Positions 17,563 to 59,612 of a stretch of DNA of 64,000 nt are shown one piece after another. Under the pieces are notes generated by a model that was given only the letters and a program-made list of their open reading frames with translations, was not told the origin of the DNA and did not search any database. The position numbers were made by a program, and so were the translations under genes. This DNA comes from Buxus sempervirens (Eukaryota; Streptophyta; Magnoliopsida; Buxales; Buxaceae). Numbering within the stretch: position 1 is the first letter of the stretch; each line of letters begins with the position of its first letter. The stretch spans positions 48,539,949 to 48,603,948 of the forward strand of contig OX387182.1 in NCBI GenBank assembly GCA_947561395.2, read 5' to 3'.

Positions 17563-17641
17563 TTTTCCCTATAAAATTGAGTGATTTCTTTGCAAATCAT
17601 TCTCCATCTCAAATTGTGATAATTATACTTACATTGTCTTT

Positions 17642-18483: not shown

Positions 18484-18573
18484 TGTAGACACCCCAAATT
18501 TCACAAACAATCATAAAAAATCATCATCTCCTTGAAAGCCAGCACAGAAATTGAAGAAAATGAACTTTTACCT

Positions 18574-18715
18574 GTATCCGGTTACTCAGGCCGGATACAA
18601 GTACTCCTTTGTGTATCCGGTAGAACATACCGGATACATGTGAGCCTTAGTGTATCCGGTACCATATACCGGATACCTTAAGGCCCTTTTGTATCCGGTC
18701 TGATATTCCGGATAC
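18574..18715. repeat. Palindrome cluster in 5' LTR, four units at 39-bp spacing
   Basis: Units start at 18574, 18613, 18652 and 18691. Each is 25 bp with arms GTATCCGG and CCGGATAC around a 7-9-base variable centre, and 14 bp separate units. They lie about 155 bp upstream of the TATA box. The first unit has the centre word ACTCAG, as do the first units of the internal clusters. Confidence 0.95.
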
Positions 18716-18870
18716 ATTAAGTTTGCTCAAAATTAGGGTTTTCCGAGAGAAATCACTTGTTACCATCATGTCCCTCATTTAATGAGGGGAAATCTCGGAA
18801 ACAACCCTAGGGTTAAGGTTGGGGGGTTCTAGACATTAAGTTGTGTCTACCAAGGACCTTAGCCTTTGCC

Positions 18871-18877
18871 TATAAAT
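18871..18877 (+). promoter_or_regulatory. LTR TATA box
   Basis: TATAAAT in the context GCCTATAAATAGGAG, 388 bp from the LTR start. The same element is at 38908 in the 3' LTR and near 9305 in the solo LTR. It should direct genomic RNA from about 18900. Confidence 0.8.
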
Positions 18878-19046
18878 AGGAGGCTCCTCTTCAAGCAAAG
18901 GACCAAGTTTTTGGAGATCGAAGAACTCCGAGTGAAGAAGGGAACCGCTGCCGGATTGCTTCCAGAACCCCAGGTAAGCCTCAACCCTCATTTATTTTCT
19001 GTATTTAATTTATTAGAGCTAGATCTCTTCTTCTACCTTTCTGTAG

Positions 19047-19052
19047 AATAAA
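19047..19052 (+). terminator. Probable LTR polyadenylation signal
   Basis: AATAAA about 175 bp downstream of the TATA box, in the context GTAGAATAAAGCC. The spacing fits a short R region, but no cleavage site can be proved from sequence. Confidence 0.45.
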
Positions 19053-20771
19053 GCCTCTTTTTGTGTGTGGAAATCCTTCCCCAGCTCAAAGTATCTCAAG
19101 ACTCCCCCTAGCCGTAAAACGTGAAGGCGGGATCTAGGAGAAACGAGACTGGGGATTGACCCTAGTGCTAGAACCCATGTAGCATAAGGCTTTTTGAATG
19201 ATTGAAAACCGTTCTATAATCAAAGTACCCTTGATTATCTCGAAGAACCGTGTTTAACGGGGAGAGAGAACAGAGGGAAACGATAATGGAACGGAACCCT
19301 AGGCTATGCTAAAACCTATCTGGTTGAATCTATATGCATGATATGTTGTTGTATTAATCTTGCTTGGTTTTTCACTCTTGCACACATATTACACTCTTTT
19401 GGCGGGATCGGCTCATATTTGGGGTTTATTACATTTATTGTGATAAATCTCAAATAAATGGCCTCAATCAATTCTAGAGTGTTTTCAAGTGATTTTCAAA
19501 AGTTTTGGATTCATCTCACACGAATCTCACACACTTTATCACTTTTTCGGATTTGGTTTTCTTCAAAAAGGGCCTAACTGGACAGCACCTGTACCCTTAC
19601 TTCGGACGCTCATAACTTCATCGTCCGGATGAATTTTGGAGCGATTCTAGAACCATGGGAAAGGTGAGGCTGTCTAGTTTATGTCCACCAAATTTCATAA
19701 AGTTCCATCAAACGGATTTTTGACACCTCTCTGTCGAAGTTAAGTGGACAGTTCAGGTTCAAATACAGAACTTGTCACTTCGACGGAGCGCCATGTATTC
19801 GTTTTAAGTCCGATTCGAGTGATTTTTGTTTCTGAGTATTCCTTTATGAGTCTATTTTCAAATCCAGTTGATTTCATAATTTTTGGATTCCATTTGAATT
19901 ATTGGTAGCCGATTTACTCAGAACTGCTCAATGGCATTTTTCTGGGTGAATCTGTGATCTTTGGGGCCTGTTCGGGATATCACCCAAGGCACATCCGAAG
20001 GGATTTTTGTATGAGGCTAGTTTTTTTCGAAAGATGGCCATACAGACTTCAATCACACCAAATTTCGTGGATTTTTATGGAGTGGATTTTTCTAGACAAT
20101 TTTCCAAAGTTGCCCACTCGTCACTTTTAAAAAATCCCCAGCAGCAACTCCAAAGGAGCATAACTCCTAGGATTTTTATCGGAATGAAGTGAAATTTTGC
20201 ATGAGACTCTTATTTACCCTAATCTTTCAAATGGATTTGGTTTGGTTCAATTTAAAATGGTATTTGAATGATTTCAAGGCAAATGGCATACTTTTTACTG
20301 AATTTTCCGGATTTGATTCAACTTTGTTTTTTAGCAACTTGTGCTTTGATTTCCATCTTTTGAGATATTCCAGAAATGATATTGACATAAGAGAGGATCT
20401 AAAATCCATTTAGATCTTCATGTGAAAATATCATACATTAGTCCTTTTTCAAGGTTTTCTATGATTTTAGCAAGCTTTCTATTTTTTTGCATGAACATAC
20501 CCTTGGCAACCACTTTGCGTGGATGAATGGGGGTGCCTAACACCTTCCCCCGTTCATAATCTAATCCCCTTACCCATCTCTGGATTTGATTTTCAAGTAG
20601 GATTGTTTTTATCCTAGAATGTTTCTTTTGTCTCTTTTTTGCTTATTTTTGATCCTTTGGTGTCCATTCTCACCCCAAAATCATGAATGGTGGCGACTCT
20701 CCCATTTTTGCGTTGAGCCCGTGTGTTGACGGAGGGATGATCATTCCGGTGATTTTCCCATGTCTCACAAC

Positions 20772-20789
20772 TGGCGACTCTGCTAGGGA
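20772..20789 (+). other. Primer binding site, tRNA-Arg-like
   Basis: TGGCGACTCTGCTAGGGA begins 2 nt after the 5' LTR. It matches the complement of the 3' end of plant tRNA-Arg(ACG), as I recall it, except at two positions. tRNA-Arg priming is typical of Tat/Ogre elements. Confidence 0.75.
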
Positions 20790-22284: not shown

Positions 22285-22426
22285 ATAACCGGTAACTCAG
22301 GCCGGTTAAGAACAGTTCTCTTCATATACGGTATGAAGTACCGGATACAAAGGCTTATGCGTGTATCCGGTTATTGTTACCGGATACAATAAGCCATAGC
22401 CTTATCCGGTACTTCAGGCCAGATAC
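22285..22426. repeat. Palindrome cluster in the gag leader
   Basis: Units start at 22285, 22324, 22363 and 22402, the same 39-bp spacing as in the LTR. They are more degenerate: unit 1 has AATAACCGG and CCGGTTA arms. Unit 1 again has the ACTCAGG centre. It lies about 0.9 kb upstream of the gag ATG. Confidence 0.9.
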
Positions 22427-22743
22427 ATTCAAAAAATGCACAAATTGGCTTTTCAGCCCGAATTTTTAAAATAAAATGCCTAAAACACTGTGGATAATCC
22501 TTAGGCACCCCAAAAAGAACATAAAAATGTTCCAAAAATACAAAATCAAAAACAAAAAAAATAATAAATAAAATAAAATAAAATATTCTTTCAAGATTTA
22601 ACCTAATTTCGAAACTCAAAGAAGGAACGAGGGTGTCATATTTTTTGACACCAACTCAACTCAAACATGTGTCAGTCAAACTTTTGAACTTGAAAACTGA
22701 GAAAATTCAGCAAATTTGAAAAAAAATAAATAAATAAATAAAA

Positions 22744-23123
22744 GAAACCTTTGGTTGGTTATTTTTATCAATCAAATCAAAACATTTGTGGGATACTTGG
22801 AAGCCCTAGAATATTCCAAGAAACCTTTGGTTGGTTATTTTTATCAATCAAATCAAAACATTTGTGGGATACTTGGAAGCCCTAGAATATTCCAAGAAGC
22901 CGTTGGTTGGTTATTTTTATCAATCAAATCAAAACATTTGTGGGATACTTGGAAGCCCTAGAATATTCCAAGAAGCCTTTGGTTGGTTATTTTTATCAAT
23001 CAAATCAAAACATTTGTGGGACGCTTGGAAGCCCTAGAATATTCCATGAAAACCTTGGTTGGTTATTTTTATCAATCAAATCAAAAAAATTTTGGGACCC
23101 TTGGAAGCCCTAGAATATTCCAA
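22744..23123 (+). repeat. 76-bp tandem repeat, five copies, in the leader
   Basis: Units begin at 22744, 22820, 22896, 22972 and 23048, each with GGTTGGTTATTTTTATCAA and ending near CCCTAGAATATTCCAAG. Divergence grows toward the 3' end. The nearly identical overlapping short open frames here are repeat artefacts. The array ends about 225 bp before the gag ATG. Confidence 0.95.
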
Positions 23124-23347
23124 CACAAAATCAAAACAACAAAAAACAAAAAAACAAAAAAACAAAAAAACAAAAAAAATCTGGATTGGTGTTCACCTAA
23201 CCTACTGGTTTACATGTATAGGGGCGTGACTCAAGTTAAATGGAAGCTAACATGTTCTGTTCATTTTTTCCCCAGGTACATTTACTTACAACCCAGGTAC
23301 ATTTATTTGCAACCATTGCTCCCGTGACCAGATTTAAAGCGAGAGCC

Positions 23348-25504
23348 ATGAACACTGAAGAGAACCAAGCCCAAGCCACCGTACCTACTCAGGACTTTGC
23401 TCAGCTGCAAGAGCAGGTGGCCGGTCTGGCCAAGATGTTGGGAGACTTACTGGCGGCTCAGGCCCAGCAGGCCCAGGCCCAAAATCAAGCCTCTACTTCC
23501 CATCCGGCACCACCACCTCAGGCCTACATGCCACCTCCGGCTCAACCCATGCCGGAGCCTATTTCTGAACCAGTCCCTGAACCCATTCTGATCAGGGAAA
23601 ATACAGTAGAATCTGAGAAAGAGCTGGAAAAGGAAAAGGCCAGAGAAGAGATGGAGAAGAAAATGCTACTCAGGATAGAAAGGATCCAGGCAGAGCTAAA
23701 GGAAGTGAAGGGGGGAGGCAACCATGCAGGCACTACCTTCGAAGATCTGTGCATGTATCCTGACGTGTGTCTACCGGCCAAGTTCAGGTGCCCGGACTTC
23801 GACAAATTTGATGGCACGGGCTACCCATTGAGCCATCTCAAATTATACTGCGGGGCCCTATGCCAGTTTGGCCGGGATGACGGCATACTGATCCAACTCT
23901 TCCAAAGGAGTCTGACCGGGTCGGCCCTTCGGTGGTTCGCTACAGTGGACCATGGAAGGATCAGGAGGTGGAAGGACCTAGCCGACGCCTTCTTAGACCA
24001 ATATAAATTCAACTCTGAGATCGTGCCAGACCGGTACGACATGATGAGGATGAGCAAGGGGAAAGATGAGCCGGTACGATAGTACGCCAAGAGGTGGAGA
24101 GAGGCCGCCTCTCAGGTCATGCCACCTATGCAAGAACCGGAGATGATCTCCACATTTATGGGCACACTGGGGCAGCCCTTTTACAACCATCTGGTGGGTC
24201 AGATCACCACCAACTTTGCAGCCCTGGTGCAGGTGGCGGACCGGATCGAAGAAGGGGTCAGGTCAGGAAGGCTGATAGACTATTCTACTCTAACTGGGCA
24301 GTCTGATTCCTCTGCCTCCATGACCCAGAAGAAGGGGGCCGGATTCAAGAAGAACGGGGCCCGAAAAGAAGGAGAGGTGAACCTGGTCCAGGCTCCTCCA
24401 GCCAAGAAGCCACTGCACGTCAACATCTCTGTACCCCAGCAACCCCAGCAGGCCCAACAGGCCCAGCAGTTGTACCAGACCCCGCATAATGTCAATTTCT
24501 CTCCCTCCGTGCCAGCTAACCCAAGGAGGACTTTTTCCAAGGAAGAGAGGGAGGCCTGGTTCGCAGCAAGGAAGAACCGAGTCTTCACTCCTCTCCCGAT
24601 ATCTCTGTCCCAACTACTGCCAACCCTGCTGAAAGGGGAATACTTGACTCTGAAGGAGCCTAACCCAAATGCCCCGAAGGGGAGGAATTTTGATCCGGCA
24701 GCCACCTGTGACTTCCACATGGGTGCACCGGGGCACTCTACAGATACCTGCTTGGTATTGAAGCATGCGGTCCAGGACCTGTTGGACCAGAAGGCTTTGG
24801 TCTTTAACACTGCTGCACCCGCCCCATCGGGAAATGATATTGGGCAGAACCCTCTGCCATACCACAATGGGGCAGGCCCATCCAACTCCATCACTGCCAT
24901 ATCCACCACGAGAAGGGCCTTTGACCCATCTCAGCTTATAGCACCTGTGGGGACTACAGTCCAGGTCCGATTTTTCCCAGAAGAGGAAGAAGAGGAGATC
25001 AACATGGTCTCCCAAAAAAACAATACAGCTGCTGAGGACATAAGTTCCTCTTTAAACCGGGTCTCATCTCTTATGACCCAGATGAATACTGCAAGGCCCA
25101 CATTGGTCTTCAATTGCAGTCCACCAATTTATTCACCATCCAAGCCGTCCACGGCTCCACTGGTCATCAACCTTAACCCCACCACTGCTTCCATCACTTC
25201 TTCTGTCCCCACAAAATCCAAACTTCAACCCCTGGTTGTAAATGTGCAGCCAGCCCAAACTATCCCTAAACCGGCCCATACATCCCGGTCCAAACTCCAG
25301 CCATTAGTGGTTAACATCCCCAAACTAGCCTATTCTGAGGCCGTTGTACCATGGAACTACAGCGAGGGAATCACGGCTACGGTTCCAATGGTCAGGAACC
25401 AGAACCAGGAGGAGGTGAACCTCATGACGAGGTCAGGGAGATGTGCAGGGGGTGAAGAGAAGGAGAAGGAGACAAAAGCAGAAAAAGAAAAAATAGAAAA
25501 ATAA
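23348..25504 (+). pseudogene. gag: gag of the Tat element, split by an amber codon
   Basis: Gag forms the virus-like particle. I start it at MNTEENQAQ (23348); the frame is open upstream to 23240 without Gag character. The N-terminus is Gln/Ala/Pro-rich, then a charged helix, then the retrotransposon Gag region (LTGSALRWFATVDHG, WKDLADAFLDQYKF). An in-frame TAG at 24080-24082 interrupts it where a Gln codon is expected; the same frame resumes at once (YAKRWREAASQV). A zinc-knuckle-like C/H motif, CDFHMGAPGHSTDTC, lies at about 24709-24753. The frame ends with TAA at 25502-25504 in a Lys/Glu-rich tail; Gag-like reading continues past it, so that stop may also be secondary. Confidence 0.9.
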
Positions 25505-25536
25505 AATGAAAAAAGAAAACAAAAAGGAAAAAATAA

Positions 25537-26814
25537 AGTGGGAGAAGACACCCCCAGGGTGCAGAAAATGAGGCAGCCGACCTCATAAAAATAATAAAGA
25601 AAAGTGAATTCAATCTTGTGGATCAGCTGAACAAGGTCCCGGCCCAGATTTCAATACTGGGCCTTTTGCTGAATTCTGAAAAGCACAGGGACGCATTGTT
25701 AAGGGTGCTACAGAGTGCACATGTATCCCAGACCATTGATCCAGACCAGCTTGGTAAAATGGTTGGTCAAATCTTGTCACATAATGTGATAAGTTTCTCA
25801 GAGGGTGAGATCAGCCCAGGTGGGTGTTATCATGTTGACCCTTTGCACATCACAGTGCTTTGTAAGGGCTGCATGATTGCACGGGTTTTAATTGACAACG
25901 GGTCGGCGTTAAACGTTTGCCCGTTAATCACTTTTACCAAGCTGGGTCTGGACCAGTCAAGGATCAAACGAAATGGGCGGATAGTTAGGGCTTTTGATAG
26001 CTCCAAGACCCACTCCCTAGGGGAGATTGAACTGCCGGTCACAATTGGGTCGAATATCTTCAACATCACATTTGAAGTGATGGATATACCCGCAGCTTTC
26101 AATCTGCTCCTCGGAAGGCCGTGGATACATTCGGCTAGGGCAATACCATCCACGCTCCACCAAAGGGTGAAATATATAAGAGGGCAAAGGGTGATAACAG
26201 TCCTAGCCGAAAACTTGGTGTCGCCCATTGTGTCACCTGATGTACCCTTGATCAATGTGGACCTAACTGTCGACAAGATTGCATTCTACTCATTCCAATT
26301 TGAAGCGGTCAACTACATACCTGGGGGGTGTGAGAAAAAGAAGGAAAAGGGGACCACTGCAGAAAAAATGGTCAAGAAAGTGATGGAGAAATACCACTTT
26401 CACCCGGGGAAAGGCCTGGGGATCAATCTGCAGGGGATGGTGGAGCCAATCACGGCTAAGAAACTGATCCCCAAGGTAGGGTTGGGCTTCAAGCCCAGAG
26501 GCTGGAGAAGAATGAAACATGAAGAAGGTGAGGTTAGAAGCAAAGGAAAACTCCCTCATTTAAGAGAAAGCTTCCCAAAACCCTCATATATAATCCAACT
26601 GTCTCCTCCCATGGACCAATCCAAGCCTCCTTACCGAAACATCAACCCATTCCAAAAGCCTTTTGTTTCAACCCTACAACCCTATAACCCATCTCCAATA
26701 CTAGGAGCAGCAGATGGGCCTGGGCCACAGCCCGAGCAGCAGGTGGACTTTTCTGAAGATGTTGGTGCATTCTTCGCCATGACTGAGGGCGAAAAGACAG
26801 GGGCAGACATGTAA
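25537..26814 (+). pseudogene. Protease and G-patch part of pol
   Basis: An aspartic protease that would process Gag-Pol. The frame is open from 25537; the Tat-typical segment NEAADLIKIIKKSEFNLV runs in from upstream. The active-site motif LIDNGSALNV is at about 25888-25917 and the family motif LLLGRPWIH follows. A G-patch-like segment with GKGLGINLQG lies near 26408-26437, often found after protease in Tat elements. A TAA at 26812-26814 ends the frame, but the same frame reads on to 27060 and then shifts into the RT frame at an A9 run (27046-27054). An intact pol probably joined them; no intron signal was seen here. Confidence 0.85.
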
Positions 26815-27062
26815 CTGCCGGTTATTGACTGGGCCGCAGTAAAGATTCCGGAAGAGGTCATTTCTGGATTGGGCCCCGTAGCAGAAAAGGGCAGTACCCA
26901 CCCGATGATGATGGCATCGGATTCTGGGTTTGAAGAGCAGGCTTTCCCTATTTCCCCTGCTCCCCAAAATTTTGTAATGAACAACTGGGAGGAAACTCCC
27001 CTTACCTTTGAAGCAGCGTTAGTTCGGCAAACTGACGCGGCTTCCAAAAAAAAACTCCAATA

Positions 27063-30000
27063 GTGGATTGCCATTTCCCTGAAGGTTCTAATGGGCCTTC
27101 GTCTTCAGGGGAATTATGTTTAGAAGGCTCACAAAAAAACCAAAAAGATTTTTCTATTTTTTCTAGAAAATTTAAATTTTTCAAAAAGGTCCAAACTACT
27201 TATGAACCATATAATCAGACCGAATTGGACCAGGTTGAATATGACTTCGACTTCGAGCTCGACTTTGACCTCATAGGGATCGAAGAAGAGATCGAGGTCA
27301 AAGGAAAAGACGTTCCAAAAGAAATTGAATACCAATTGGAACGTCATGAAAAGGGGGTCCAACCTAATATTGAGGAGACCATATCCATAAATCTTGGGAC
27401 CGAAGAGGACCCAAAAATTGTGAAAATCGGGTCATGCTTGTCTGATGTGCAGAAAAATGAAATGTCGCAGTTCTTGGCAGATTACAAGGATGTGTTTGCT
27501 TGGTCGTATCGGGACATGCCGGGGTTGGACACTGACATGGTGGTGCACAAGTTGCCAATTTTGCCAGGGGTTAAGCCAATTAAGCAGAAGCTGAGAAGAT
27601 TGAAACCTGAGTGGACTCTGAAGGTCAAGGACGAAGTGGTCAAACAGTTCCAAGCCGGATTTTTGGCAGTCTCTACGTACCCGGAGTGGCTCGCAAACAT
27701 AGTGCCGGTACCAAAGAAGGACGGGAAAGTCAGAATGTGCGTGGACTACAGAGATTTGAATAAGGCAAGCCCTAAGGATGATTTTCCGCTTCCACACATA
27801 AACATCTTGGTGGACAATACTGCGGTACATAGCCTATTCTCCTTCATGGATGGCTTCTCAGGATATAATCAGATCAAGATGGCTAAGGAAGATCAAGAGA
27901 AAACAGCATTTATCACACCTTGGGGCACATTCTACTATACAGTCATGCCGTTTGGGCTTAAGAACGCTGGTGCAACATATCAGCGGGCCATGACAGCACT
28001 ATTTCATGACATGATCCACAAGGAGATGGAGGTCTACGTGGACGATATGATTGCCAAATCATGCAAAGAGGAGGACCACTTGATCAATCTGAAAAAGGTG
28101 TTTGATCGACTCAGAAAATACAATTTACGGCTTAACCCGGCTAAGTGCGTCTTTGGGGCTACATCAGGGAAGTTACTGGGGTTTATTGTGAGCCGAAGAG
28201 GAATTGAAATTGACCCGGCTAAGGCCAAGGCCATAGTTGAAATGCCAGCACCCAGAACAGAGAAGGAGGTCAGGGGCTTTCTTGGGAGAATTCAATACAT
28301 AAGCCGGTTCATAGCACAGCTCACTGCTATCTGTGAACCAATTTTCAAGCTTTTGAGGAAAGATAACCCGACGGTCTGGAATGAGGACTGCCAGCAGGCA
28401 TTTGACACAATAAAGAGGTATTTGCTGAACCCACCTGTGCTAGTGCCACCAACTCCAGGAAGACCGCTGATCTTGTACTTGTCAGTGTTGGAAACATCGA
28501 TGGGATGTGTCTTGGGGCAACATGATGAGACTGGTAGAAAAGAAAGGGCAATTTACTATCTGAGTAAAAAATTCACGGAATATGAAGCCAAATACTCACC
28601 ATTGGAAAAGACTTGCTGTGCTCTAGTGTGGGCAACTCAGAGGCTAAGGCATTATTTCCTTAGTCACTCCACACTATTGATATCCCGGATGGACCTGCTG
28701 AAATATTTATTTGAGAAACCGGCACTGACTGGCAGAACGGCTAAGTGGCAACTACTACTGTCCGAGTTTGACCTCACATACATCACCCAGAAGGCAATCA
28801 AGGGTCAAGCCATAGCTGATCACCTAGCTGCACATCCTTTGCCAGAATATCAACCCTTGAAGACCAACTTTCCAGATGAGGCAATTCTGTACACTGAAGA
28901 GGAGGACAATGAGAGTTCTTGGCAGATGTTCTTCGATGGGGCCGCCAACATGAATGGGAACGGAATAGGGGCAGTCTTGGTTAAACCAGATGGTTCACAC
29001 ATTCCGATTGCAGTAAAGTTGAGATTCCAGTGCACCAATAACATAGCAGAATATGAAGCATGCATAATTGGATTGCAAGCAGCCATGGATCATGGAGTAG
29101 AGGAACTTGACGTATACGGGGATTCGAGTCTTATCATCTTCCAAACAACTGGTGAATGGAAAACCAAGGATCACAAATTGATCCCCTATCACCAGTACTT
29201 GGAAGAAATAAGCACAAATTTCACTCGAATTTCCTTCAACTATATGCCAAGGGCCAAGAATCAGTTTGCGGATGCTCTAGCAACCTTGGCTTCAATGGTC
29301 AGCATACCAGAAGGAGTAGACATCAGACCGCTGGAAATTGAGGTTAGAGATGAACCGGCTTACTGTCTTGTTCTAGAGGGAGCACCAGAAGAAGAAGCAC
29401 CGTGGTTTCAAGATATCAAAAATTTCTTGAACAATCGGAGTCTGCCAGAAAATGCCACGGCTACTGAGAAGAGAACAATACAGAGATTGGCTGGTCAATT
29501 TCTGCTAAATGGTGGACATGTGTACAAGAGGTCACATAACGACATTCTGCTCAGATGTGTTGCCAAGGCTGAATCGAAAAGGCTGATTGAGACTGTACAT
29601 GGAGGAGTTTGTGGGCCCCATATGAGTGGGCACATGCTTGCAAAGAAGATCTTGAGGCTGGGTTACTACTGGACAACCATGGAACATGATTGCTGTATAC
29701 ATGTCAGGAGGTGCCATCAATGTCAAATCTATGCAGATAATAAGAATGCACCCCCAAGTGAGTTGCACAACATGACATCCCCATGGCCCTTCTCTATGTG
29801 GGGCATAGATGTTATTGGCATGATCTCCCCTAAGGCATCGAACGGGCACAGATTCATCCTGGTGGCGATCGACTATTTCACTAAGTGGGTGAAAGCAGCC
29901 TCATATGCAAACATCACTAGCAACCATGTTATTAAATTTTTGAAGCACAATATCATTTGTCGCTATGGACTGCCAAGTGCCATAGTATCAGACAATGCTT

Positions 30001-30650
30001 CAAATATTAAGAACAAGGACATGAAGAAAATATGTGAGCAGTTTCAGATCACCCATCATAAGTCAGCTCCGTACAGGCCAAAGATGAATGGGGCAGTGGA
30101 AGCAGCAAACAAGAACATAAAGAAAATCATTCAGAAGATGGTAGTGAGCTACAAGGATTGGCATGAAATGCTGCCACTTGCTCTACATGCCTACAGAACC
30201 TCGATCCGGACTTCAACTGGGGCAATCCCGTACTCCCTAGTCTATGGGATGGAAGCAGTCTTGCCCGTGGAAGTAGAGATCCCATCACTCCGAGTGCTCA
30301 TGGAAGCAGAACTGGAAGAAGCTGAATGGATACAATCAAGACATGATCAACTTAACCTGATAGAAGAAAAGCGGTTGAAAGCGCTTTGCCATGGACAGTT
30401 GTACCAGAAGAGAATGGCCCGAGCTTACAATAAGAAAGTGAGGCCCAGAACTTTCCAAGAAGGAAACCTGGTGCTAAAGAAAATTCTACCATTTTTGGAA
30501 GATCCTCGTGGTAAGTTCAAGCCCAATTGGGAAGGCCCATATGTCGTCAAGAAAGTCCTATCAGGGGGAGCACTCATCTTAGCAGAAATGGATGGGTCAG
30601 ATTTTCCTGAGCCCATTAACTCTGATGCAGTAAAAAGGTATTTTCCTTGA
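27063..30650 (+). CDS. pol: Reverse transcriptase / dual RNase H / integrase polyprotein
   Basis: An uninterrupted 1195-codon frame; the first codon given is GTG, so it is best read as the continuation of pol after a frame change at 27046-27054. RT: YVDD at residues 325-328 with upstream MPFGLKNAGATYQR. The first RNase H is degenerate (ETSMGCVLGQHD). A second, archaeal-type RNase H has D625 (FFDGAA), E665 and D687 (YGDSSLI), the Tat hallmark. Integrase: HHCC region with VHGGVCGPHMSGH and CHQC, then D916, D977 and E1013 with 35 residues between the last two, and a C-terminal GPY-type module (NWEGPYVVKK). It ends AVKRYFP at 30650. All catalytic residues are present, so activity in trans is possible. 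Confidence 0.95.
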   Translation: MDCHFPEGSNGPSSSGELCLEGSQKNQKDFSIFSRKFKFFKKVQTTYEPYNQTELDQVEYDFDFELDFDLIGIEEEIEVKGKDVPKEIEYQLERHEKGVQPNIEETISINLGTEEDPKIVKIGSCLSDVQKNEMSQFLADYKDVFAWSYRDMPGLDTDMVVHKLPILPGVKPIKQKLRRLKPEWTLKVKDEVVKQFQAGFLAVSTYPEWLANIVPVPKKDGKVRMCVDYRDLNKASPKDDFPLPHINILVDNTAVHSLFSFMDGFSGYNQIKMAKEDQEKTAFITPWGTFYYTVMPFGLKNAGATYQRAMTALFHDMIHKEMEVYVDDMIAKSCKEEDHLINLKKVFDRLRKYNLRLNPAKCVFGATSGKLLGFIVSRRGIEIDPAKAKAIVEMPAPRTEKEVRGFLGRIQYISRFIAQLTAICEPIFKLLRKDNPTVWNEDCQQAFDTIKRYLLNPPVLVPPTPGRPLILYLSVLETSMGCVLGQHDETGRKERAIYYLSKKFTEYEAKYSPLEKTCCALVWATQRLRHYFLSHSTLLISRMDLLKYLFEKPALTGRTAKWQLLLSEFDLTYITQKAIKGQAIADHLAAHPLPEYQPLKTNFPDEAILYTEEEDNESSWQMFFDGAANMNGNGIGAVLVKPDGSHIPIAVKLRFQCTNNIAEYEACIIGLQAAMDHGVEELDVYGDSSLIIFQTTGEWKTKDHKLIPYHQYLEEISTNFTRISFNYMPRAKNQFADALATLASMVSIPEGVDIRPLEIEVRDEPAYCLVLEGAPEEEAPWFQDIKNFLNNRSLPENATATEKRTIQRLAGQFLLNGGHVYKRSHNDILLRCVAKAESKRLIETVHGGVCGPHMSGHMLAKKILRLGYYWTTMEHDCCIHVRRCHQCQIYADNKNAPPSELHNMTSPWPFSMWGIDVIGMISPKASNGHRFILVAIDYFTKWVKAASYANITSNHVIKFLKHNIICRYGLPSAIVSDNASNIKNKDMKKICEQFQITHHKSAPYRPKMNGAVEAANKNIKKIIQKMVVSYKDWHEMLPLALHAYRTSIRTSTGAIPYSLVYGMEAVLPVEVEIPSLRVLMEAELEEAEWIQSRHDQLNLIEEKRLKALCHGQLYQKRMARAYNKKVRPRTFQEGNLVLKKILPFLEDPRGKFKPNWEGPYVVKKVLSGGALILAEMDGSDFPEPINSDAVKRYFP

Positions 30651-31583: not shown

Positions 31584-33285
31584 CTAGTCTCCTAGCTGCT
31601 CCTCAAGCTCCCGAATCTGAGCTGCCTGAGCTGCAATGACTTCTGAAGCCCCCTCTGCAGCGGGATCACTCAAGAAGGAAATGACCTCATCTGAAAGGGC
31701 CTGCCTGATCCACATACTCCTAAGGCTGGCCAAAGTATCCTGGTACTTCTGCCGGATCATACGGACCTCGAAGCGACGGGCCTGCCTCTGCTCCTTCAGC
31801 TTCTCTTCCACGGCAGTACGGCGTGAGATCTGCTCCTCAAGCTGCCTCTCCAGATAAATGCCCTGTATCCTGACCTCCTGGGCCTCCCGTACCCATATCT
31901 GCTGAAGCCGCTTATGAGAAGCCCGCTCAGACTCCAGAATGTCCTCATAGGTGGGAGCCAAGACTACAGGAGGATCTTCGGGTACCGGGGCCTGAGTCTG
32001 TATCTGCTCCTTGATCCAGAAGAGATAATCCTTCACATGGGCTTCTGAGAAGACTGGACCATGCATGAAGCGGACATAGGACCACTCCTTCATCAACCAG
32101 GCATTCAGCTTCATAGAAAGGGGCCAAAGACGATCCTCATATCCACATGGGATGATAATCCCCTGGGTCGCACGGAACTGACGAAGGACCCGCAGAGGAA
32201 GATACAGCACTGCATGCTTTAGGCCCTCTAGGATCAGAAAGTTGCGGTCACGGAAGCTAATCACTGTCGCTGCATTGGGCTGATAAGTGCCAGGCCATCT
32301 CACCTGGTCCTCCTGAAGTGAGCCCAAGAAAGTGAACCAGCCCTGTTTGCCCCCTGGAATATTGGGGCACCCCCTGTTGCTCATCAAGAAGGGGACTTTC
32401 AGACTCGGGAAGAAGTGTCGATTGATTTCTTCAATCTGGCTCAAATGATCAAGTAGCCAAAGCTGCAAAGGAAGAGAGATATGTCAGCACATTGCAAAAA
32501 TAAAAATAAAAAACAAAAAAGCAAGAAAAAAACAAAAAAAGCAAAAAGAAAGCCAAAAAAAAAAAAAAATTTTTTACCTGCAGGATTTGGACACATGCTA
32601 GGAAGCGTTTCGACTTCCTATTGTAGCAGTCGGTCAAGGCCTGATACATCCCAGCCAAAATCATAGGGGCCAACCTCTCCCGCTCCCTAACCTGGCATAT
32701 CACTGAGATCAAGGCCAAGTCCACCTCGTCATCCTCCCGTGGGAAAAGTAACTAGTTGACCACAATCAGGGTCAAGGCGTTGAACCGGGCCTCCTTATTT
32801 TCCCCCCTCAAAAGCTTCTCAGTCAAAAAAGCCTTAGATAGGGTCAAAAGGGTGTCAGAATCCCCCAACTCCTTCTTCCCTATGCCCAAGAATGTAGAAG
32901 CTTCCTTTTTGTAACTGGGCCTAAGAGGTGGATTCACCACCTTCTCATCAAACCTCAAGCCCAAGATGGTTTCCACCTCCTCAATGGTTGGGGTCATCTC
33001 ATGGTTCCCAAAACGGAACAAGTTGAGGTCAGGAACCCAATGACCAATCATGGCCTCTATAATCTCCCACCTAAAGGGAACCTTGGGAATAATCAGGGTG
33101 TGGCCTAGATTAGTAGTATCCCATCTCCTCTCCTCATCTAGGGTCATAGAGTTAACCCACCTTGTGTAAAAGGAATCCACAGGGTTGTACCTAGTGAGAT
33201 TTGGGGGTTTTGATCTGAAAGGTTGTTTTGCAGGGGAGGCAGTGTGGACAGACAGTAATGGGGCAGAAAATGATCCGGATTCCAT
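31584..33285 (-). pseudogene. Antisense gene B, PMD/DUF7745-like, two exons, one internal stop
   Basis: Exons on the minus strand are 33285-32578 and 32462-31584, joined by GT-AG sites (CTGCAG|GTAAAA; CTTTGCAG|CTTTGG) in phase 0, giving 529 codons. I choose MESGSFSAP (33285) because a TATAAAT lies at 33395-33401; an upstream ATG at 33396 overlaps that box. The N-terminal half has the motif MTPTIEEVETILGL, characteristic of plant-mobile-domain / DUF7745-type proteins of retrotransposon origin; the C-terminus is a long charged coiled coil. An in-frame TAG at 32752-32754 (codon 178), possibly from a Trp codon, interrupts it. Function in the element is unknown. Confidence 0.75.
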
Positions 33286-33394
33286 TGGATGTGATGGGAG
33301 CAAGCTAGAACTCAAGAGGAGGAAGAAAAAGGCGAAAAAGGGGGTTTCTAAACTCAAAAACTCGTAAAAATGCTCAAATCCCGAGGCTGGTTGC

Positions 33395-33401
33395 ATTTAT
33401 A
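33395..33401 (-). promoter_or_regulatory. TATA box of antisense gene B
   Basis: TATAAAT on the minus strand, about 110 bp upstream of the chosen ATG. The palindrome cluster starts 13 bp upstream of it in the minus-strand sense. Confidence 0.6.
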
Positions 33402-33413
33402 GCATCTTTTAAG

Positions 33414-33555
33414 GTATCCGGTAACTCAGACCGGATACAAAAGACTTTATTAATATCCGGTTAAGTATACCGGATACAAAGGAGGCTATGAGTATCCGGT
33501 CTGTTATACCGGATACAAAGAGCAATCAATGTATCCGGTCTGATATACCGGATAC
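33414..33555. repeat. Palindrome cluster upstream of antisense gene B
   Basis: Four units at 33414, 33453, 33492 and 33531, 39 bp apart, with well-preserved GTATCCGGT and ACCGGATAC arms. It lies between the stop of gene A (33752) and the TATA box of gene B. The leftmost unit again has the ACTCAG centre, so the cluster has the same plus-strand orientation as in the LTR. Confidence 0.95.
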
Positions 33556-33751
33556 AAAGGAAAACAGCAAAAAAAAAGAGCTAAGGATGAAAAATCCGAA
33601 TTTTTTACCTGTTTTACCTGTGTACAAGTCATAATTGCATAAAATTGAAAACAAAAGATGTGCAAGACAAGAGAGAATGAATCAAAGTTTTTATATATAT
33701 ATATGCAAGTTTTTTGTACAATGATGATAGAAAAGACATAGAAATCCTAAT

Positions 33752-36537
33752 CTACTGCTCCTGTGCAGGATCATCCCCGCGTCCTCTACCACGCGCTCTA
33801 CGGCCTCTCCCTCGAGACGGTCGGCGCCTATAATAGGACAGGAGGCGCTCCGCCATATAGCGCGGTCTCCGTCCTATGAAAGACTGAAGCTGGTACTCGA
33901 CGCAGTAATCCGACGTGTCGGGAGAAGGGACAGGAACAGAATCAGAGGAAGCCTCGGGTTCAGCAGGTACGGGCTCAACTGGACCCTCAGCTACAACAGT
34001 CTCTGCTCCTGCATGTCCAGAAGGCCCGGCAGCAGAAGAAGGGCCAGGAGCAGAAATGTCTGTGCCAAATGGAGAAAAATCAGGAATTGAGAGACTAAGC
34101 TGAACAAAAGAGAAGAAGCTAAGGAAAACATACCAGGGATATCTACGGCAGGCACTAGCGGATCCGGATCCACCGGGTCAGCAGCAGGGACCTCCTCCGG
34201 CTCAGGAACCATCACTGGAGATGAAGGAATAGCCGGGGCATCCGCAGAAGCAGCTGGGGCATCAGTAGGTGGAACATCACCAGGATCAGCAGCTGAGACA
34301 TCCACAGGATCCGTAGCCCGAGCAGGAGACGGGTCAGGAATGAGGAAATCGTGCTCTAAGGCAACATCCTGATCTGGGACAGAGCCCTGCACAAGTCAAA
34401 CAAGCATATCAGAATATCAGAAACAGGAAAATGAAAGAAACGAAAATATAAGAAGGCCAGATACCTGTCTAGCCTGGAGCTCAGCAACCAAGGCCTCCAG
34501 CTCCCTGATCCGGGCATCCCGCTGAGCCACGACTGCATCGTGCTCAGCGATCATATCATTGATCGCAGCCCGCTGGCTCTCGAACCGGTCCCGAATGGTG
34601 TTCAGCTCGTGTACCTGCCAACAAGAACAGAAGCAGGGTCAGAAATGCATAAGGGAAGAAAAGGGGATGAAAATATGAAGAGTACAAGGCTTACCGTGTC
34701 CTCATGGATCCGGATACGGATCCCGCCGATCTCTGTCACCCCGGCACGAGTGGGTCGATCCATCAAGCATCCAATAGATACCCTCTGGAACCACTCGTCG
34801 TAATCTCCATCTACTGCGAGCCCCTCCGCATCCATGAAATGATCGAGATGATCCACGTCGAAGCCGGGGAGGAGAGTATCGGGACCCACAAGAGGAGGCG
34901 GAACGGGGATGCGAAGTGCACCCGTGTGCTGGAAGTACAGGCGCTCTCCTAAGTACATCACCCTACCAAGCTTCCCAAGGAAGCACTGGTAGGGCTGACG
35001 TCGGAGATCTCTCTCAAAAGCATCCTGCACTGCCATCTCACGGGCAACTCCAACATCCACGTCATCTGGACGGGATAGAATGAGCTGCAAAGAAGCAAAG
35101 TGGTCAGATACAGTCAAGAGGCAGAAAAGTAAAAGGAAAAGATAGGGGACTTACATCAGATCGGCGGGCACGGTCTAAGTGCACTCGGGCAGTACGAGGC
35201 TGGCTCCTATCAGCATCTCGAACCTGGGCCGACCATTGCAGGGCCACAGGGAAATCCGCAACCTCAGGAACTGGGGAGGGGCGGAAGAAGGTCATATAGG
35301 TGTACATAAACACCTGGAAAAGGAAAATGAGGCAGAAATAAGAAGGGATAAAGCCTAAATGAATTAAATCAGACAGGTGAAGATCAATACCTGTAAAATC
35401 TGCCAGAAAAACCGGCTGCTGACTCCATCACCTCTCGGAGATGCTAAGCCTCGAACCGCTCGGCACAACCTGGCCAGGACGGTCCCATAAATGAGTCGAC
35501 CACAAGCCAGCTGGCGGGTCTGGCGGAGATCCCTCAAGGCATCCAAGAAGAGTGGACTGACGCTAGTGGTATCCTCCGGGAAGAAGCAGCTCCCCAACAT
35601 CAGCAAGAATACGTGCCGGAAGATAGGAACAAAAGCAGCATCCTCCACAGCCACAGTCTTGTGCCTCCCCTCAAAATGTCGAGCCAGACTCTCCCGCAGC
35701 CAACTAATGGAGAGCCGGCCACTCCGCCCATCCCAAGCAGCAGGAGGCAAGGCCGGATGTCCCAGGAGGAGGCCGATGTCCTCCACAGAAGGTCGCTCCA
35801 AGACGATGGTCCGCCCAGACAGAGGAATGCCAGTGATCATCACGAAGTCGGAAGGGCAAATCCCTAGCTCCACGTCCGGTAGGTGGAAGGACTGAGTCTC
35901 CGGAAAATACCTCTCCATCATAGCAAAAATGAGAGGACGATCAGCTCTAAATGCAGGGATGCTGATAAAGTGATCAAGGTGGCACCTCCCAAACTCCCGC
36001 CTGAGTGCCGGAGACAGTGACTGAGCCAACTCGCTAAATCTACCCCAACTGCCTCGAAGATGGGAGGAATGATAAGGGAGCGGCACATCGGCCCTAATGC
36101 ACATAGAGGGGTGGCTATCCAAGCCACTGAGGAGCTCTATATCATGAACAGAGGCCCTCAGCTCCTCAGAGACCCCCGACAAAGCCACGGCTGCACCATC
36201 CTGAGCCGCACCTCTGGCTCTACCTCGGCCTCTGCCACGGCCTCTCTCGCCCTCAAGGGCCTGATCGTGAACTCTGCCTCGCCCTCTGCCTCGACCACGA
36301 GCAGGTGCAACCACGGGCTAAATTTCAAGAGAAAATTGTGAAGGTTGTGTGGGAAAGGAGAATAGAAGAAAGAAGAGAGAAAGAATTTTGAAAGCCTACC
36401 TCAGCAGAGCTCTCCCGGGAGACATCTAGTGGCTCCGATAAGGTGGCACTGGAACTCGCCTCCGTCCGAGCCCGTGAAGTGGAGGGCTGATCAGCGGGGT
36501 CAGCCTCCTCTCTAACGCGGGAACGACTCCTAGCCAT
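33752..36537 (-). CDS. Antisense gene A, plant-mobile-domain-like protein, seven exons, uninterrupted
   Basis: Minus-strand exons: 36537-36400, 36317-35391, 35313-35155, 35084-34695, 34614-34465, 34386-34134, 34059-33752. All introns are 69-81 bp with GT-AG borders, and the phases join into 775 codons ending in TAG. Exon 2 holds an RG-rich segment, then a region like the plant mobile domain (PMD, aminotransferase-like): SELAQSLSPALRREFG, MMERYFPETQSFHLP, SDFVMITGIPLSGR. Exon 5 is a coiled coil (RIRELEALVAELQARQ), exon 6 Pro/Asp-rich, and the C-terminus has RGRGRRARGRGRG. Antisense genes near the 3' end are known in Tat elements; the role is unknown. It lies head-to-tail with gene B. Confidence 0.85.
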
Positions 36538-36684
36538 CTACACAGGGAAGTGTTTTATGAATTCCAGTAAAAGTTTACCAGAAATTTTAACTTGCTTTAA
36601 ATTTCAGTTCATTAGGGATCTTGCATGATTTTGTTTGGTCTTAAGAAAATCTTCTGTTAAATTTGTTATCTGTTTCGGCTCAGA

Positions 36685-36693
36685 GTTTAAATA
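36685..36693 (-). promoter_or_regulatory. Possible TATA-like box of antisense gene A
   Basis: TATTTAAAC on the minus strand, about 150 bp upstream of the ATG at 36537. The match is weak, so the start site is uncertain. Confidence 0.3.
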
Positions 36694-36699
36694 GTTGGC

Positions 36700-37855
36700 A
36701 TCGCTAGTGTGTGAAATCCTGACTCTGAAGCTTTTCTAAGGACATCTACAAGGTGTAATATTTGCTAAATCTACTGCAGGACTTCTACATGAAAGCTGGA
36801 CAATGATGCAGAAATCAAAGACCCAAGGGTCAATCAAGGAAAGGCCCGGACAGTCAAAATACCATCTTGATCAAGGGCAGGCAAAAATCAAAGAAGAACA
36901 GGTCATAACATCTAGAAAGATTTCTTCTCCACCAGCAATTCAACAGAAGGCTATGCAATTCAGTGAAAAATCCTAAGATACCGGCGAAAGTATCTTTCTA
37001 AAAGGGTGACTACTGTTAGCAGTTCAGGGATCCATACAAAGCAGGCAATTAGTTTCAAAAGTGGAGAACCCACTTAAAAAGGTCAAGGTAATCATACCAG
37101 AGGTGGTCAAGGACAAGTTAGATGGAGCACCACCTTATCAAGAAAAAAGGGGATCAAAGCATGTTGGAGAACAAATCATATCAGTACATTTGAAGTCACT
37201 CAACATGAAACATGCAATTCAGTTCCCCACCAATAAAAGAATTCAGTTGCTGCCAATTTAAGAGTACCAATGAACAAGAGTACTTCAAAAAAAATTTTTT
37301 TATCCAGTCAAGGATGCAGCCAATAAGAGATCCGGTGAAAGAAAACCCAATGGACAAAGCAGAATGCAGCAAATCAGGATGCAAGTCAAGCAAATTTTTG
37401 CAACATGGATTCGGCAATCATTCCACCATCAATTAGAAATTGTCACAAGAAAGGAATTATGCATTGTCGACAAAAGAAAAAAAAACACAGCTTTACTACT
37501 TACTGATGGTAGTGACAATGTGTAAACTGGCAGAAGCTTGGATTCGAGCACTAATGAAGAGCAATTGGCCGAACTTAGAAGTGATCGCCGGAGCAAATGC
37601 AACAGCATCGGGCAATGAACCGTCGGCAGGAGGAGAAAATAGCCGAAATGAGGGTTTCGTCCCAACTGGAATCAAATGCGGTTGTCGCCTGCAGCAATAG
37701 CAGTCACCGGAGCTCAAGGAAGCGTCGGACGTCGCCGGAGAAGAAAGGAATACCGTCGGGTGACGAAGGGGGAGAAGAACGTCCGGTCTGAGTTATCGGA
37801 GAATGAAGAAAAGAAATGAAAAGTCGCGGTCGCGCGCGACTTAAGTAAACCTGGT
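36700..37855. other. Upstream region of antisense gene A, no gene recognised
   Basis: No coding frame with a recognisable domain. A G/C-richer block with CCGG words occupies about 37580-37840. Confidence 0.5.
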
Positions 37856-37919
37856 GTATCCGGATACTCAGACCGGATACACACAAGGTCATTCGTATCC
37901 GGTATGTTATACCGGATAC
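37856..37919. repeat. Palindrome cluster, two units, upstream of antisense gene A
   Basis: Units at 37856 and 37895, again 39 bp apart. Unit 1 has the ACTCAG centre. The cluster is cut short on the right by the purine tract, as if two further units were lost. Confidence 0.9.
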
Positions 37920-38108
37920 AAAAGAAAAACAGAAAAAAAGAGAAAAAGGAGAAGAAAAATAGAAAAAAGGGGAAAAGAAAAGAGAAAAAGAGAAAAAAGA
38001 GAGAAAAGAAAAAAAAAGAAAAGAAAAGGAAAAAGAGAAAAGGAAAAAGAGAAAAGAAAAGAAAAAAAGAAGAAAAAAAAAAGAAAAGAAAAAGAAAAGG
38101 AAAAGAGC
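37917..38108 (+). repeat. Long purine (A/G) tract
   Basis: About 190 bp of nearly pure A and G, made of GAAAAA/GAAAAG words, with few pyrimidines. It creates Lys/Glu-rich and Phe/Ser/Leu-rich shadow frames. It is separate from the polypurine tract beside the 3' LTR. Confidence 0.95.
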
Positions 38109-38125
38109 AAAATGTGATACAACTT

Positions 38126-38360
38126 CTCATTATTTTCTCACAAAATCCTATTTTTGTCTTGGAATCCACCTCACAGCCACGAGAGCTCGGTGGAATTTGG
38201 GACAACCTTGGGAAATGTGCCTGGTCAAAAGGATGATATTCACTCAATTTTTAACTTGGTTTGATAAAAAATCAGTTTTCAAAAAATCCCTATTTTTGGG
38301 CTTAAAAACCACTTCACAGCCACAAGTGCTCGGTGGAATTTAAGAACTCTTGGAGAAATG
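38126..38360 (+). repeat. Imperfect tandem duplication before the 3' LTR
   Basis: Two copies of about 93 bp (38126-38218 and 38267-38360) share CCTATTTTTG, CACAGCCAC and GCTCGGTGGAATTT. They lie just upstream of the polypurine tract. Confidence 0.8.
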
Positions 38361-38507
38361 CCCCCCTTAAAGTTAGGGCTTTTTGGCAAATCTTCACCCA
38401 AAAATTATTTTTTTCTACAAAATTGAATTAAATCAAGCAAATCATGCTTAAGAAAGTGCAATTTGGGCGTGTCTAATCTTTGCAGCTCACTGCTTCGCAG
38501 CTCCCGC

Positions 38508-38520
38508 AAAGAGGGGCAGT
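38508..38520 (+). other. Polypurine tract
   Basis: AAAGAGGGGCAGT immediately precedes the 3' LTR; the AAAGAGGGG core is the likely plus-strand primer. Confidence 0.75.
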
Positions 38521-40806
38521 TGTAGACACCCCAAATTTCACAAACAATCATCAAAAATCATCATCTCCTTGAAAGCCAGCACAGAAATTGAAGAAAATGA
38601 ACTTTTACCTGTATCCGGTTACTCAGGCCGGATACAAGTACTCCTTTGTGTATCCGGTAGAACATACCGGATACATGTGAGCCTTAGTGTATCCGGTACC
38701 ATATACCGGATACCTTAAGGCCCTTTTGTATCCGATCTGATATACCGGATACATTAAGTTTGCTCAAAATTAGGGTTTTCCGAGAGAAATCACTTGTTAC
38801 CATCATGTCCCTCATTTAATGAGGGGAAATCTCGGAAACAACCCTAGGGTTAAGGTTGGGGGGTTCTAGACATTAAGTTGTGTCTACCAAGGACCTTAGC
38901 CTTTGCCTATAAATAGGAGGCTCCTCTTCAAGCAAAGGACCAAGTTTTTGGAGATCGAAGAACTCCGAGTGAAGAAGGGAACCGCTGCCGGATTGCTTCC
39001 AGAACCCCAGGTAAGCCTCAACCCTCATTTATTTTCTGTATTTAATTTATTAGAGCTAGATCTCTTCTTCTACCTTTCTGTAGAATAAAGCCTCTTTTTG
39101 TGTGTGGAAATCCTTCCCCGGCTCAAAGTATCTCAAGACTCCCCCTAGCCGTAAAACGTGAAGGCGGGATCTAGGAGAAACGAGACTGGGGATTGACCCT
39201 AGTGCTAGAACCCATGTAGCATAAGGCTTTTTGAATGATTGAAAACCGTTCTATAATCAAAGTACCCTTGATTATCTCGAAGAACCGTGTTTAACGGGGA
39301 GAGAGAACAGAGGGAAACGATAATGGAACGGAACCCTAGGCTATGCTAGAACCTATCTGGTTGAATCTATATGCATGATATGTTGTTGTATTAATCTTGC
39401 TTGGTTTTTCACTCTTGCACACATATTACACTCTTTTGGCGGGATCGGCTCATATTTGGGGTTTATTACATTTATTGTGATAAATCTCAAATAAATGGCC
39501 TCAATCAATTCTGGAGTGTTTTCAAGTGATTTTCAAAAGTTTTGGATTCATCTCACACGAATCTCACACACTTTATCACTTTTTCGGATTTGGTTTTCTT
39601 CAAAAAGGGCCTAACTGGACAGCACCTGTACCCTTACTTAGGACGCTCATAACTTCATCGTCCGGATGAATTTTGGAGCGATTCTAGAACCATGGGAAAG
39701 GTGAGGCTGTCTAGTTTATGTCCACCAAATTTCATAAAGTTCCATCAAACGGATTTTTGACACCTCTCTGTCGAAGTTAAGTGGACAGTTCAGGTTCAAA
39801 TACAGAACTTGTCACTTCGACGGAGCGCCATGTGTTCGTTTTAAGTCCGATTCGAGTGATTTTTGTTTCTGAGTATTCCTTTATGAGTCTATTTTCAAAT
39901 CCAGTTGGTTTCATAATTTTTGGATTCCATTTGAATTATTGGTAGCCGATTTACTCAGAACTGCTCAATGGCATTTTTCTGGGTGAATCTGTGATCTTCG
40001 GGGCCTGTTCGGGATATCACCCAAGGCACATCCGAAGGGATTTTTGTATGAGGCTAGTTTCTTTCGAAATATGGCCATACAGACTTCAATCACACCAAAT
40101 TTCGTGGATTTTTATGGAGTGGATGTTTCTAGACAATTTTCCAAAGTTGCCCACTCGTCACTTTTAAAAAATCCCCAGCAGCAACTCCAAAGGAGCATAA
40201 CTCCTAGGATTTTTATCGGAATGAAGTGAAATTTTGCATGAGACTCTTATTTACCCTAATCTTTCAAATGGATTTGGTTTGGTTCAATTTAAAATGGTAT
40301 TTGAATGATTTCAAGGCAAATGGCATACTTTTTACTGAATTTTCCGGATTTGATTCAACTTTGTTTTTTAGCAACTTGTGCTTTGATTTCCATCTTTTGA
40401 GATATTCCAGAAATGATATTGACATAAGAGAGGATCTAAAATCCATTTAGATCTTCATGTGAAAATATCATACATTAGTCCTTTTTCAAGGTTTTCTATG
40501 ATTTTAGCAAGCTTTCTATTTTTTTGCATGAACATACCCTTGGCAACCACTTTGCGTGGATGAATGGGGGTGCCTAACACCTTCCCCCGTTCATAATCTA
40601 ATCCCCTTACCCATCTCTGGATTTGATTTTCAAGTAGGATTGTTTTTATCCTAGAATGTTTCTTTTGTCTCTTTTTTGCTTATTTTTGATCCTTTGGTGT
40701 CGATTCTCACCCCAAAATCATGAATGGTGGCGACTCTCCCATTTTTGCGATGAGCCCGTGTGTTGACGGAGGGATGATCATTCTGGTGATTTTCCCATGT
40801 CTCACA
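38521..40806 (+). repeat. 3' LTR of the Tat element
   Basis: 2286 bp, same length and termini as the 5' LTR. Palindrome units are at 38611, 38650, 38689 and 38728. I counted about 16 substitutions and no indels against the 5' LTR, for example one altered arm base in the fourth unit (CCGATC). It is followed by the GATAC duplication. Confidence 0.95.
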
Positions 40807-59342: not shown

Positions 59343-59612
59343 GACCGCAGTATATGTGCGGTTTTGGTTAATTTGGTCTGAACCGCCCTGTATGTACGGT
59401 TGCAACCGCACACACAGCACGGTTGATGTTCATGCTTCTCGCGTGGGCTGCCACGTGGCTTCCGGAAGCTTCGGCCGTTGAGTCACGTCGACAGCAATCA
59501 TGGCGAGCGTAACTGAATTGGAACCGCCCTGTATGTGCGGTTTAGATGAGTTTGCATGGAAACCGTATTAGAGTGACGGTTATGTTGAAACCGCACTGAG
59601 TATACGGTTTTG
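59343..59612. repeat. Palindrome cluster with ACCGC stems
   Basis: About six short inverted repeats with AACCG and CGGTT arms start near 59344, 59382, 59405, 59523, 59562 and 59590. Two intervals are 38 and 39 bp, echoing the Tat LTR clusters, but others are not. It lies 200-470 bp upstream of the TATA box. Confidence 0.75.

Follow-up and report, generated by a model that had tools for sequence, protein, structure and literature searches.

Palindromic arrays with a 39-bp period at the long terminal repeat and antisense-gene promoters of an Ogre/Tat-type retrotransposon in Buxus sempervirens

A 64,000-nucleotide stretch of the Buxus sempervirens genome (assembly GCA_947561395.2, contig OX387182.1, positions 48,539,949 to 48,603,948 of the forward strand; hereafter the window, in whose own coordinates positions are given) contains a full-length Ogre/Tat-type retrotransposon that carries clusters of a palindromic unit repeated every 39 bp. 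The clusters lie upstream of the TATA box in both long terminal repeats (LTRs) and upstream of the TATA box of one of two antisense genes encoded between pol and the 3' LTR. Judging from the DNA sequence, we favor with moderate confidence the interpretation that the arrays are symmetric dimer-binding sites forming a shared upstream control module, most likely bound by one or more proteins that the element itself encodes. A cis-regulatory role of the arrays is well supported, and the binder proposed below is a candidate. Antisense genes in Tat-lineage elements and the plant mobile domain (PMD) in Ogre elements are already known; the new part is the palindromic array shared between promoters, of which no description was found in the literature searched, which excluded preprints and most subscription papers. 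For host genes, modules of a PMD protein and its motif may recently have been described. Judged by title (PMC11963269 in part of its text), the papers retrieved on Ogre and palindromes did not concern promoter arrays, and those on retrotransposon-encoded transactivators did not concern plant elements.

The features on which the argument depends are as follows.

18484 to 40806, plus strand: full-length Ogre/Tat-type Ty3/gypsy retrotransposon, identified by the LTR pair, the target-site duplication GATAC on both sides, the primer-binding site and the pol domains
18484 to 20769, plus strand: 5' LTR, by LTR alignment
38521 to 40806, plus strand: 3' LTR, by LTR alignment
18574 to 18715, no strand: palindrome cluster 1 with 4 units, preceding the TATA box of the LTR
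22285 to 22426, no strand: palindrome cluster 2, 4 units with degenerate arms, in the leader; the first unit is the symmetric variant AACCGG/CCGGTT
33414 to 33555, no strand: palindrome cluster 3, with 4 units that lie upstream of antisense gene A
37856 to 37919, no strand: palindrome cluster 4, with 2 clear units that lie upstream of antisense gene B
37782 to 37800, no strand: degenerate extra unit near cluster 4, about two periods from the unit at 37856
38611 to 38752, no strand: palindrome cluster 5, the 3' LTR copy of cluster 1
9007 to 9148: solo-LTR cluster, inside the solo LTR at 8917 to 11187
18870 to 18877, plus strand: TATA box CTATAAAT of the 5' LTR, one of three CTATAAAT in the element
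33395 to 33402, minus strand: TATA box CTATAAAT for antisense gene A, separated from cluster 3 by 11 bp and unchanged in 5 aligned copies
31587 to 33285, minus strand: antisense gene A (DUF7745/PMD-like), in pieces, by profile matches; start ATG and an intron near 32484-32577 placed by eye
33754 to 36537, minus strand: multi-exon antisense gene B, with a plant mobile domain (PF10536) and with ends and splice sites placed by eye

Geometry, recurrence and constraint of the arrays

Each unit has the form GTATCCGG-N9-CCGGATAC, with two 8-bp arms and a 9-bp gap in all 22 units of the window, and the units fall into six clusters with a 39-bp step throughout every cluster. The 22 units, their positions and the period had been claimed in a first-pass annotation of the window, and all of them were recovered. 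The range that it gave (18574 to 38752) ends inside the 3' LTR, the element reaching 40806, and it had missed both the antisense genes and the coincidence of clusters with promoters. Five clusters lie inside the 22.3-kb element and the sixth in the solo LTR of a relative. Perfect arms were found in 15 of the 22 units and in none of 100 shuffles; the other seven, starting at 9046, 9124, 22285, 22324, 22402, 33453 and 38728, have 1-4 arm mismatches. A relaxed scan (at most 5 mismatches over both arms, gaps of 5-13) gave 130 matches, of which 44 belong to or adjoin the clusters and 86 fall in the rest of the window; 20 Markov controls gave 37-65 matches. Loose palindrome matches are thus common in this window. 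Outside the clusters, the sole site with a gap of 9 and at most 3 mismatches was at 31735. The proposal that the units keep a fixed helical phase did not hold: 39 bp corresponds to 3.7 helical turns, and adjacent dyads therefore face different sides of the helix.

The genome-wide search for both arms that the first-pass annotation had called for returned 20,492 exact-arm units, compared with 0 for the reversed-pattern control (gaps of 5-13 allowed), so the array extends beyond this one copy. The gap was 9 in 50 of 50 among the matches listed, and CCGGATAC-N14-GTATCCGG made up 11,447 of the 11,553 N0-18 pairs, so that 99.1% hold the 39-bp period, a constancy that shared ancestry explains in part. 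Thirty-three inter-unit spacers, drawn from the matches listed with some near-duplicates and reverse-orientation ones left out, showed a mean pairwise identity of 42%. The layout of the element was repeated in five other elements on C1, with an LTR cluster followed by a leader cluster at 3.5-3.8 kb, a gene A cluster at 14.9-15.7 kb and a second LTR cluster at 20.1-20.7 kb; these plus-strand elements were hand-picked among the matches listed, leaving out other places on C1, for example 142046, 3385845-3395459, 3434291 and 4227606-4227667. Gene B clusters were present at or near the edges of 10 of 30 gene B loci (L036, L039, L043, L045, L050, L054, L055, L056, L061 and L062); the window's own gene B copy is L035, a locus that stops just before its gene B cluster.

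The earlier proposal that arms and geometry are kept more than the filler was borne out strongly between paralogous clusters and slightly between close LTRs. The LTR and gene A clusters are identical at 63/64 arm, 25/36 centre and 17/56 spacer positions, the spacer being the 14 bp after each unit (arms versus spacers, Fisher 5.5e-17), and their first three spacers agree at 14/42 positions against 24% expected. For the LTR and leader clusters the corresponding values were 56/64, 18/36 and 22/56. The LTR of L001 has very different centres and spacers, yet it retains four exact units at 39 bp. Among five gene A promoters (the window, L055, L074, L075 and L077, with the incomplete L076 excluded), invariant columns numbered 61/64 in the arms, 22/36 in the centres and 28/42 in the spacers (50/78 for centre and spacer together), and 54/65 in the distal flank. 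As a side observation, the centre of the last cluster 3 unit (33531-33555) is TCTGATATA in the window and TATGTCAGA in L055, L074 and L077, and TATGTCAGA is close to the reverse complement of TCTGATATA, as if the centre had flipped between the arms.

These comparisons bear on whether the clusters are functionless tandem repeats spread by duplication. In each of clusters 1 to 4 of the full-length element, the leftmost unit has an ACTCAG centre, as had been noted before, hence the clusters were copied at some time; ancestry alone would keep the spacing in close copies, and the spacers of the close solo LTR are about as well kept as its arms. The spacers of the paralogous LTR and gene A clusters, however, are near background next to almost invariant arms, so that the earlier idea of cassette copying is supported in part, by the recurring first unit. 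The inter-unit gap also stayed almost constant, whereas the solo and 5' LTRs differ by 29 gap openings across 2.3 kb. We consider functionless repeats very improbable.

Symmetry of the units was also seen in their variants. The first leader unit carries the same change on both arms (AACCGG/CCGGTT), and the symmetric form AACCGG-N9-CCGGTT occurs 1,128 times genome-wide (control 95), compared with 573 occurrences (315 + 258) of the one-sided AACCGG-N9-CCGGAT (control 33 + 31 = 64). By our estimate, independent changes in about 20,000 units would yield just a handful of symmetric forms.

Paired arms would also be expected of RNA hairpins that act, for instance, in RNA processing or packaging, in dimerisation or in the production of small RNAs. 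Three clusters fold far beyond shuffles (z of -11.8, -7.6 and -12.8), the leader and 3' clusters lie within the genomic RNA, and the covariation score on 37 units, a set from which some near-identical units were dropped, as were L002-L004, which overlap L001 as copies of it, was matched by 20 of 500 shuffles. The check for compensatory changes that had been suggested found a two-sided change in 1 of 296 pair cells, which 148 of 500 shuffles equalled; the arms are nearly invariant, and since they vary so little this test cannot decide on hairpins. A TATA box lies downstream of both the 5' LTR cluster and the gene A cluster, and hairpins do not need a constant 14-bp inter-unit gap, so that the strong folding stands and a hairpin function appears decidedly improbable. 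The two CCGG sites in each perfect unit could, as another alternative, gate the promoters by sensing DNA methylation or by being its targets. This leaves the conservation of the outer GTAT/ATAC letters and the 39-bp period unexplained and is the least probable of the alternatives considered, although methylation could hold alongside protein binding. Both are weaker readings than a dimer-binding operator, which is backed by the constraint on arms and spacing between paralogous clusters, the symmetric arm changes and the position next to TATA boxes.

Clusters at promoters and the antisense genes

The element contains CTATAAAT three times. Read in the direction of transcription, each of these copies follows closely on a cluster, 154 bp beyond it in the two LTRs and 11 bp beyond it in the case of gene A. 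On both strands of the whole window CTATAAAT was found seven times, in four LTRs, at gene A and at two sites elsewhere. A bacterial promoter scan at cluster 3 was set aside as inapplicable to plants. Cluster 2 lies about 0.9 kb ahead of the candidate gag ATG (23348), and clusters 2 and 4 may likewise act on promoters.

The stretch from pol to the 3' LTR contains both antisense genes. Gene A matches DUF7745 in two pieces (E 7e-6, just under the cut-off, and 9.1e-7) and has an in-frame TAG at 32752-32754 in this copy; Pfam matching of its last exon gave no family. The gene B exon at 35367-36317 matches PF10536 above the cut-off (E 2.3e-12, antisense). BLASTP showed no significant similarity between the first piece of gene A and the gene B exon (E 0.21). 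The PMD exon of gene B is under purifying selection, with a ratio of nonsynonymous to synonymous substitution rates (dN/dS) of 0.16 over 78 non-independent pairs from 13 full-length copies among 30 loci; the three copies closest to the exon in the window gave 0.66-1.01, a range to be expected if copies are recent. Stop-free exons numbered 101 of 125 for gene B and 100 of 131 for the last exon of gene A, shares that are biased upward because only the best-scoring candidates (best 125 of 3,226 and best 131 of 5,859, respectively) were scored. No PDB sequence relatives of the PMD exon were found at E up to 1, and its search against viral contigs gave 3 pattern matches with 0 confirmed, the array giving 0.

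A broader PMD search of the genome gave 8,447 candidates, of which 117 were scored. Another PMD family (C12:33557562-33562061 and similar) has a pair of PMD frames separated by about 3.4 kb; at this locus they are 575 and 538 aa long. Of the 30 loci of higher-scoring PMD families taken from the broader search (L005-L034), 7 had repeats, spaced by 44 or 69 bp, and no other repeats were detected. In L011, L012, L013, L016, L033 and L065, a long PMD frame (783-985 aa) is accompanied by 44-bp-spaced repeats, which in L011 and relatives number 2-3 copies by eye and were not reported by Tandem Repeats Finder. In L011 and L065 they come after a Tat-type pol frame, to which the PMD frame is antisense. 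They were rejected as a promoter array, since they follow the pol frame (RNase H, RVT_3, integrase) and no promoter could be identified there.

The host element, its surroundings and a sister LTR family

Further features of the window are listed below.

20772 to 20789, plus strand: primer-binding site TGGCGACTCTGCT..., beginning 2 bp past the LTR
23240 to 30650, plus strand: open frames of gag and pol, which in this copy are spread over several reading frames
8917 to 11187, plus strand: solo LTR of a relative, 87.7% identical, with GTAAT flanks, carrying the cluster at 9007-9148
59343 to 59609, no strand: sister-family LTR U3 with six AACCG-N11-CGGTT palindromes, five exact and the one at 59343 with one mismatch

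The LTRs of the full-length element are 2,286 bp each and differ at 16 positions (Kimura two-parameter distance 0.0070), which corresponds to an age of 0.27-0.50 million years under assumed substitution rates. Its gag and pol domains comprise Retrotrans_gag (just under the cut-off), G-patch, RT, RNase H, RVT_3 and integrase; the G-patch domain (E 3e-6) lies at 25537-26811, in the frame preceding the RT frame. In the frame at 27036-30647, RVT_3 (aRH-like, residues 633-751) stands between RT_RNaseH (474-578) and rve (918-1015). The order RT-RH-aRH-INT, with aRH between RNase H and integrase, is the Tat/Ogre criterion (PMC6317226), and the element has this order together with an extra PMD open reading frame (ORF), as in Ogre/Tat-type elements. 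It seems to have inserted within a Plant_tran transposase frame (17585-18535, E 7.3e-33).

Other repeats were also observed. The leader contains five 76-bp tandem repeats (22742-23121), each with an inverted repeat at an equivalent place. Units spaced 30-34 bp apart at 724-840 have in common a CTACTCAGGGT-like centre, and the arms flanking the centre vary in matched pairs (TGACG/CGTCA, TGCCG/CGGCA), a hairpin-like pattern of compensatory changes. At 1002-1197 there are 28-bp tandem repeats, the majority containing a TGTTC-N6-GAACA palindrome.

The sister LTR is about 66% identical in R-U5, its copies aligning from about 58.8 kb and ending at about 61.6 kb. Its unit core, CCG-N11-CGG, is that of the main unit. 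Eight sister LTR copies, including the one in the window, have 2-6 exact units each, and AACCG-N11-CGGTT occurs 19,195 times genome-wide versus 1,691 in the control, an 11-fold excess that includes leader units of the main family. Small clusters of this motif at C1:6284385-6284433 and C1:6683839-6683956 lie 4.5-5 kb before LTR-type clusters, a position resembling that of gene A in the main element.

Candidate binders and comparison with known systems

In the proposed mechanism, a dimeric, sequence-specific DNA-binding protein would occupy the symmetric units, and one module would serve the LTR promoter (gag-pol), antisense gene A and antisense gene B, with an additional site in the gag leader. 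Adjacent dimers may touch and bind cooperatively, as suggested by the fixed 14-bp inter-unit gap. The binder is most likely encoded by one or both antisense PMD-type genes, which would give an autoregulatory and perhaps anti-silencing circuit; an element-encoded binder would be in keeping with the joint maintenance of arrays and PMD genes and with the differing arms of the sister family. More tentatively, the antisense PMD proteins may bind the arrays at the LTR and at their own promoters as dimers and activate or un-silence all copies of the family, with sister families carrying diverged protein-site pairs.

The main rival, which we consider unlikely, is that the arrays are enhancers for a host transcription factor, host sites having gathered at the element promoters and the antisense PMD genes having another function. 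Host factors are used by many plant LTRs, and the promoter positions and the constraint fit this reading too. The difference in arms between sister families (ATCCGG versus AACCG) is instead expected of a fast-evolving, element-specific pair, and to our knowledge the four-unit, 39-bp geometry is unusual among host enhancers. Searches for three motif strings returned 0 papers, a weak test since whole words alone were matched.

Several observations weigh against the control module or against a PMD protein as its binder. When the 5' LTR is compared with the close solo LTR, arms (62/64) are barely better kept than spacers (52/56; centres 26/36), and the TATA-side flank of the gene A promoters is invariant in 72/74 columns, equal to the arms. 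The excess of symmetric variants may be mostly one inherited leader unit: 4 of the 5 first matches listed are the leader unit of tabulated elements, which makes a single ancestral change a simple partial cause. The leader cluster has degenerate arms (56/64 against the LTR) and no nearby CTATAAAT, and cluster 4, also lacking CTATAAAT, is 1.3 kb from the first ATG of gene B (36537, by eye). Spacing in the sister family is looser, with centre distances of 38, 23, 141, 39 and 28. None of the L005-L034 loci, covering each PMD match and 1.5 kb on each side, has a palindrome of this type, so PMD genes are not generally accompanied by such arrays within 1.5 kb, as a host factor would allow; a single palindrome common to all PMD families was rejected for the same reason. 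The Arabidopsis PMD motif, exemplified by CATGCAGTTT at MORC1, is unlike the unit, and MAIN and MAIL1 are host genes (PMC9899485).

Known systems nevertheless provide partial parallels for an element-encoded regulator. VANC, encoded by the Arabidopsis VANDAL elements, is not known to be a PMD protein. VANC/VANDAL offers the closest known way of working (PMC5735166; PMC10398659), with an accessory gene and short motifs clustered in noncoding DNA that differ between related families (PMC5735166). Here, too, a short motif is clustered in noncoding regions of the element. One sister LTR family, carrying AACCG-N11-CGGTT, may be a parallel to the differing motifs. VANDALs differ in being DNA transposons whose VANC motifs lie in tandem repeats, the word stem "palindrom" being absent from the main text (PMC5735166), and in our case the evidence is sequence.

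Ogre/Tat elements with extra ORFs share the RT-RH-aRH-INT order, the extra genes and the PMD, which is present in 57% of Ogre elements, and the PMD-A clades are exclusive to Gypsy elements (PMC6317226; PMC5418596, respectively). A promoter array is unmentioned in the available text of PMC6317226, whereas here a cluster lies upstream of each of the two antisense genes. Maize Grande gene23 and Retand TRP28 are likewise antisense genes between pol and the 3' LTR, and the Grande gene has its own promoter and a nuclear product, with a regulatory role proposed; they belong to other protein families, and the available text describes no palindromic array there (PMC7264820, PMC11963269). The function of Tat-lineage antisense genes was called unknown in one review (PMC7264820). 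Arabidopsis MAIN and MAIL1 are PMD proteins tied to the promoter DOWN motif and gene activation, and affect gene expression and transposon silencing, the mechanism and direct chromatin contact being left open (PMC7156037, PMC9899485). PMD genes of tea yield phased small RNAs (PMC10673657), which fits a conflict with host silencing.

If the antisense PMD proteins do bind these sites, the plant mobile domain would be a sequence-specific DNA-binding domain, accounting for its retention in Ogre elements, and the array would be a candidate DNA target for PMD proteins. If the LTR and antisense promoters share an operator array, the antisense genes would have a concrete job, element-wide self-regulation. 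With about 20,000 exact sites in one genome, the arrays could also disperse regulatory sites that act on host genes.

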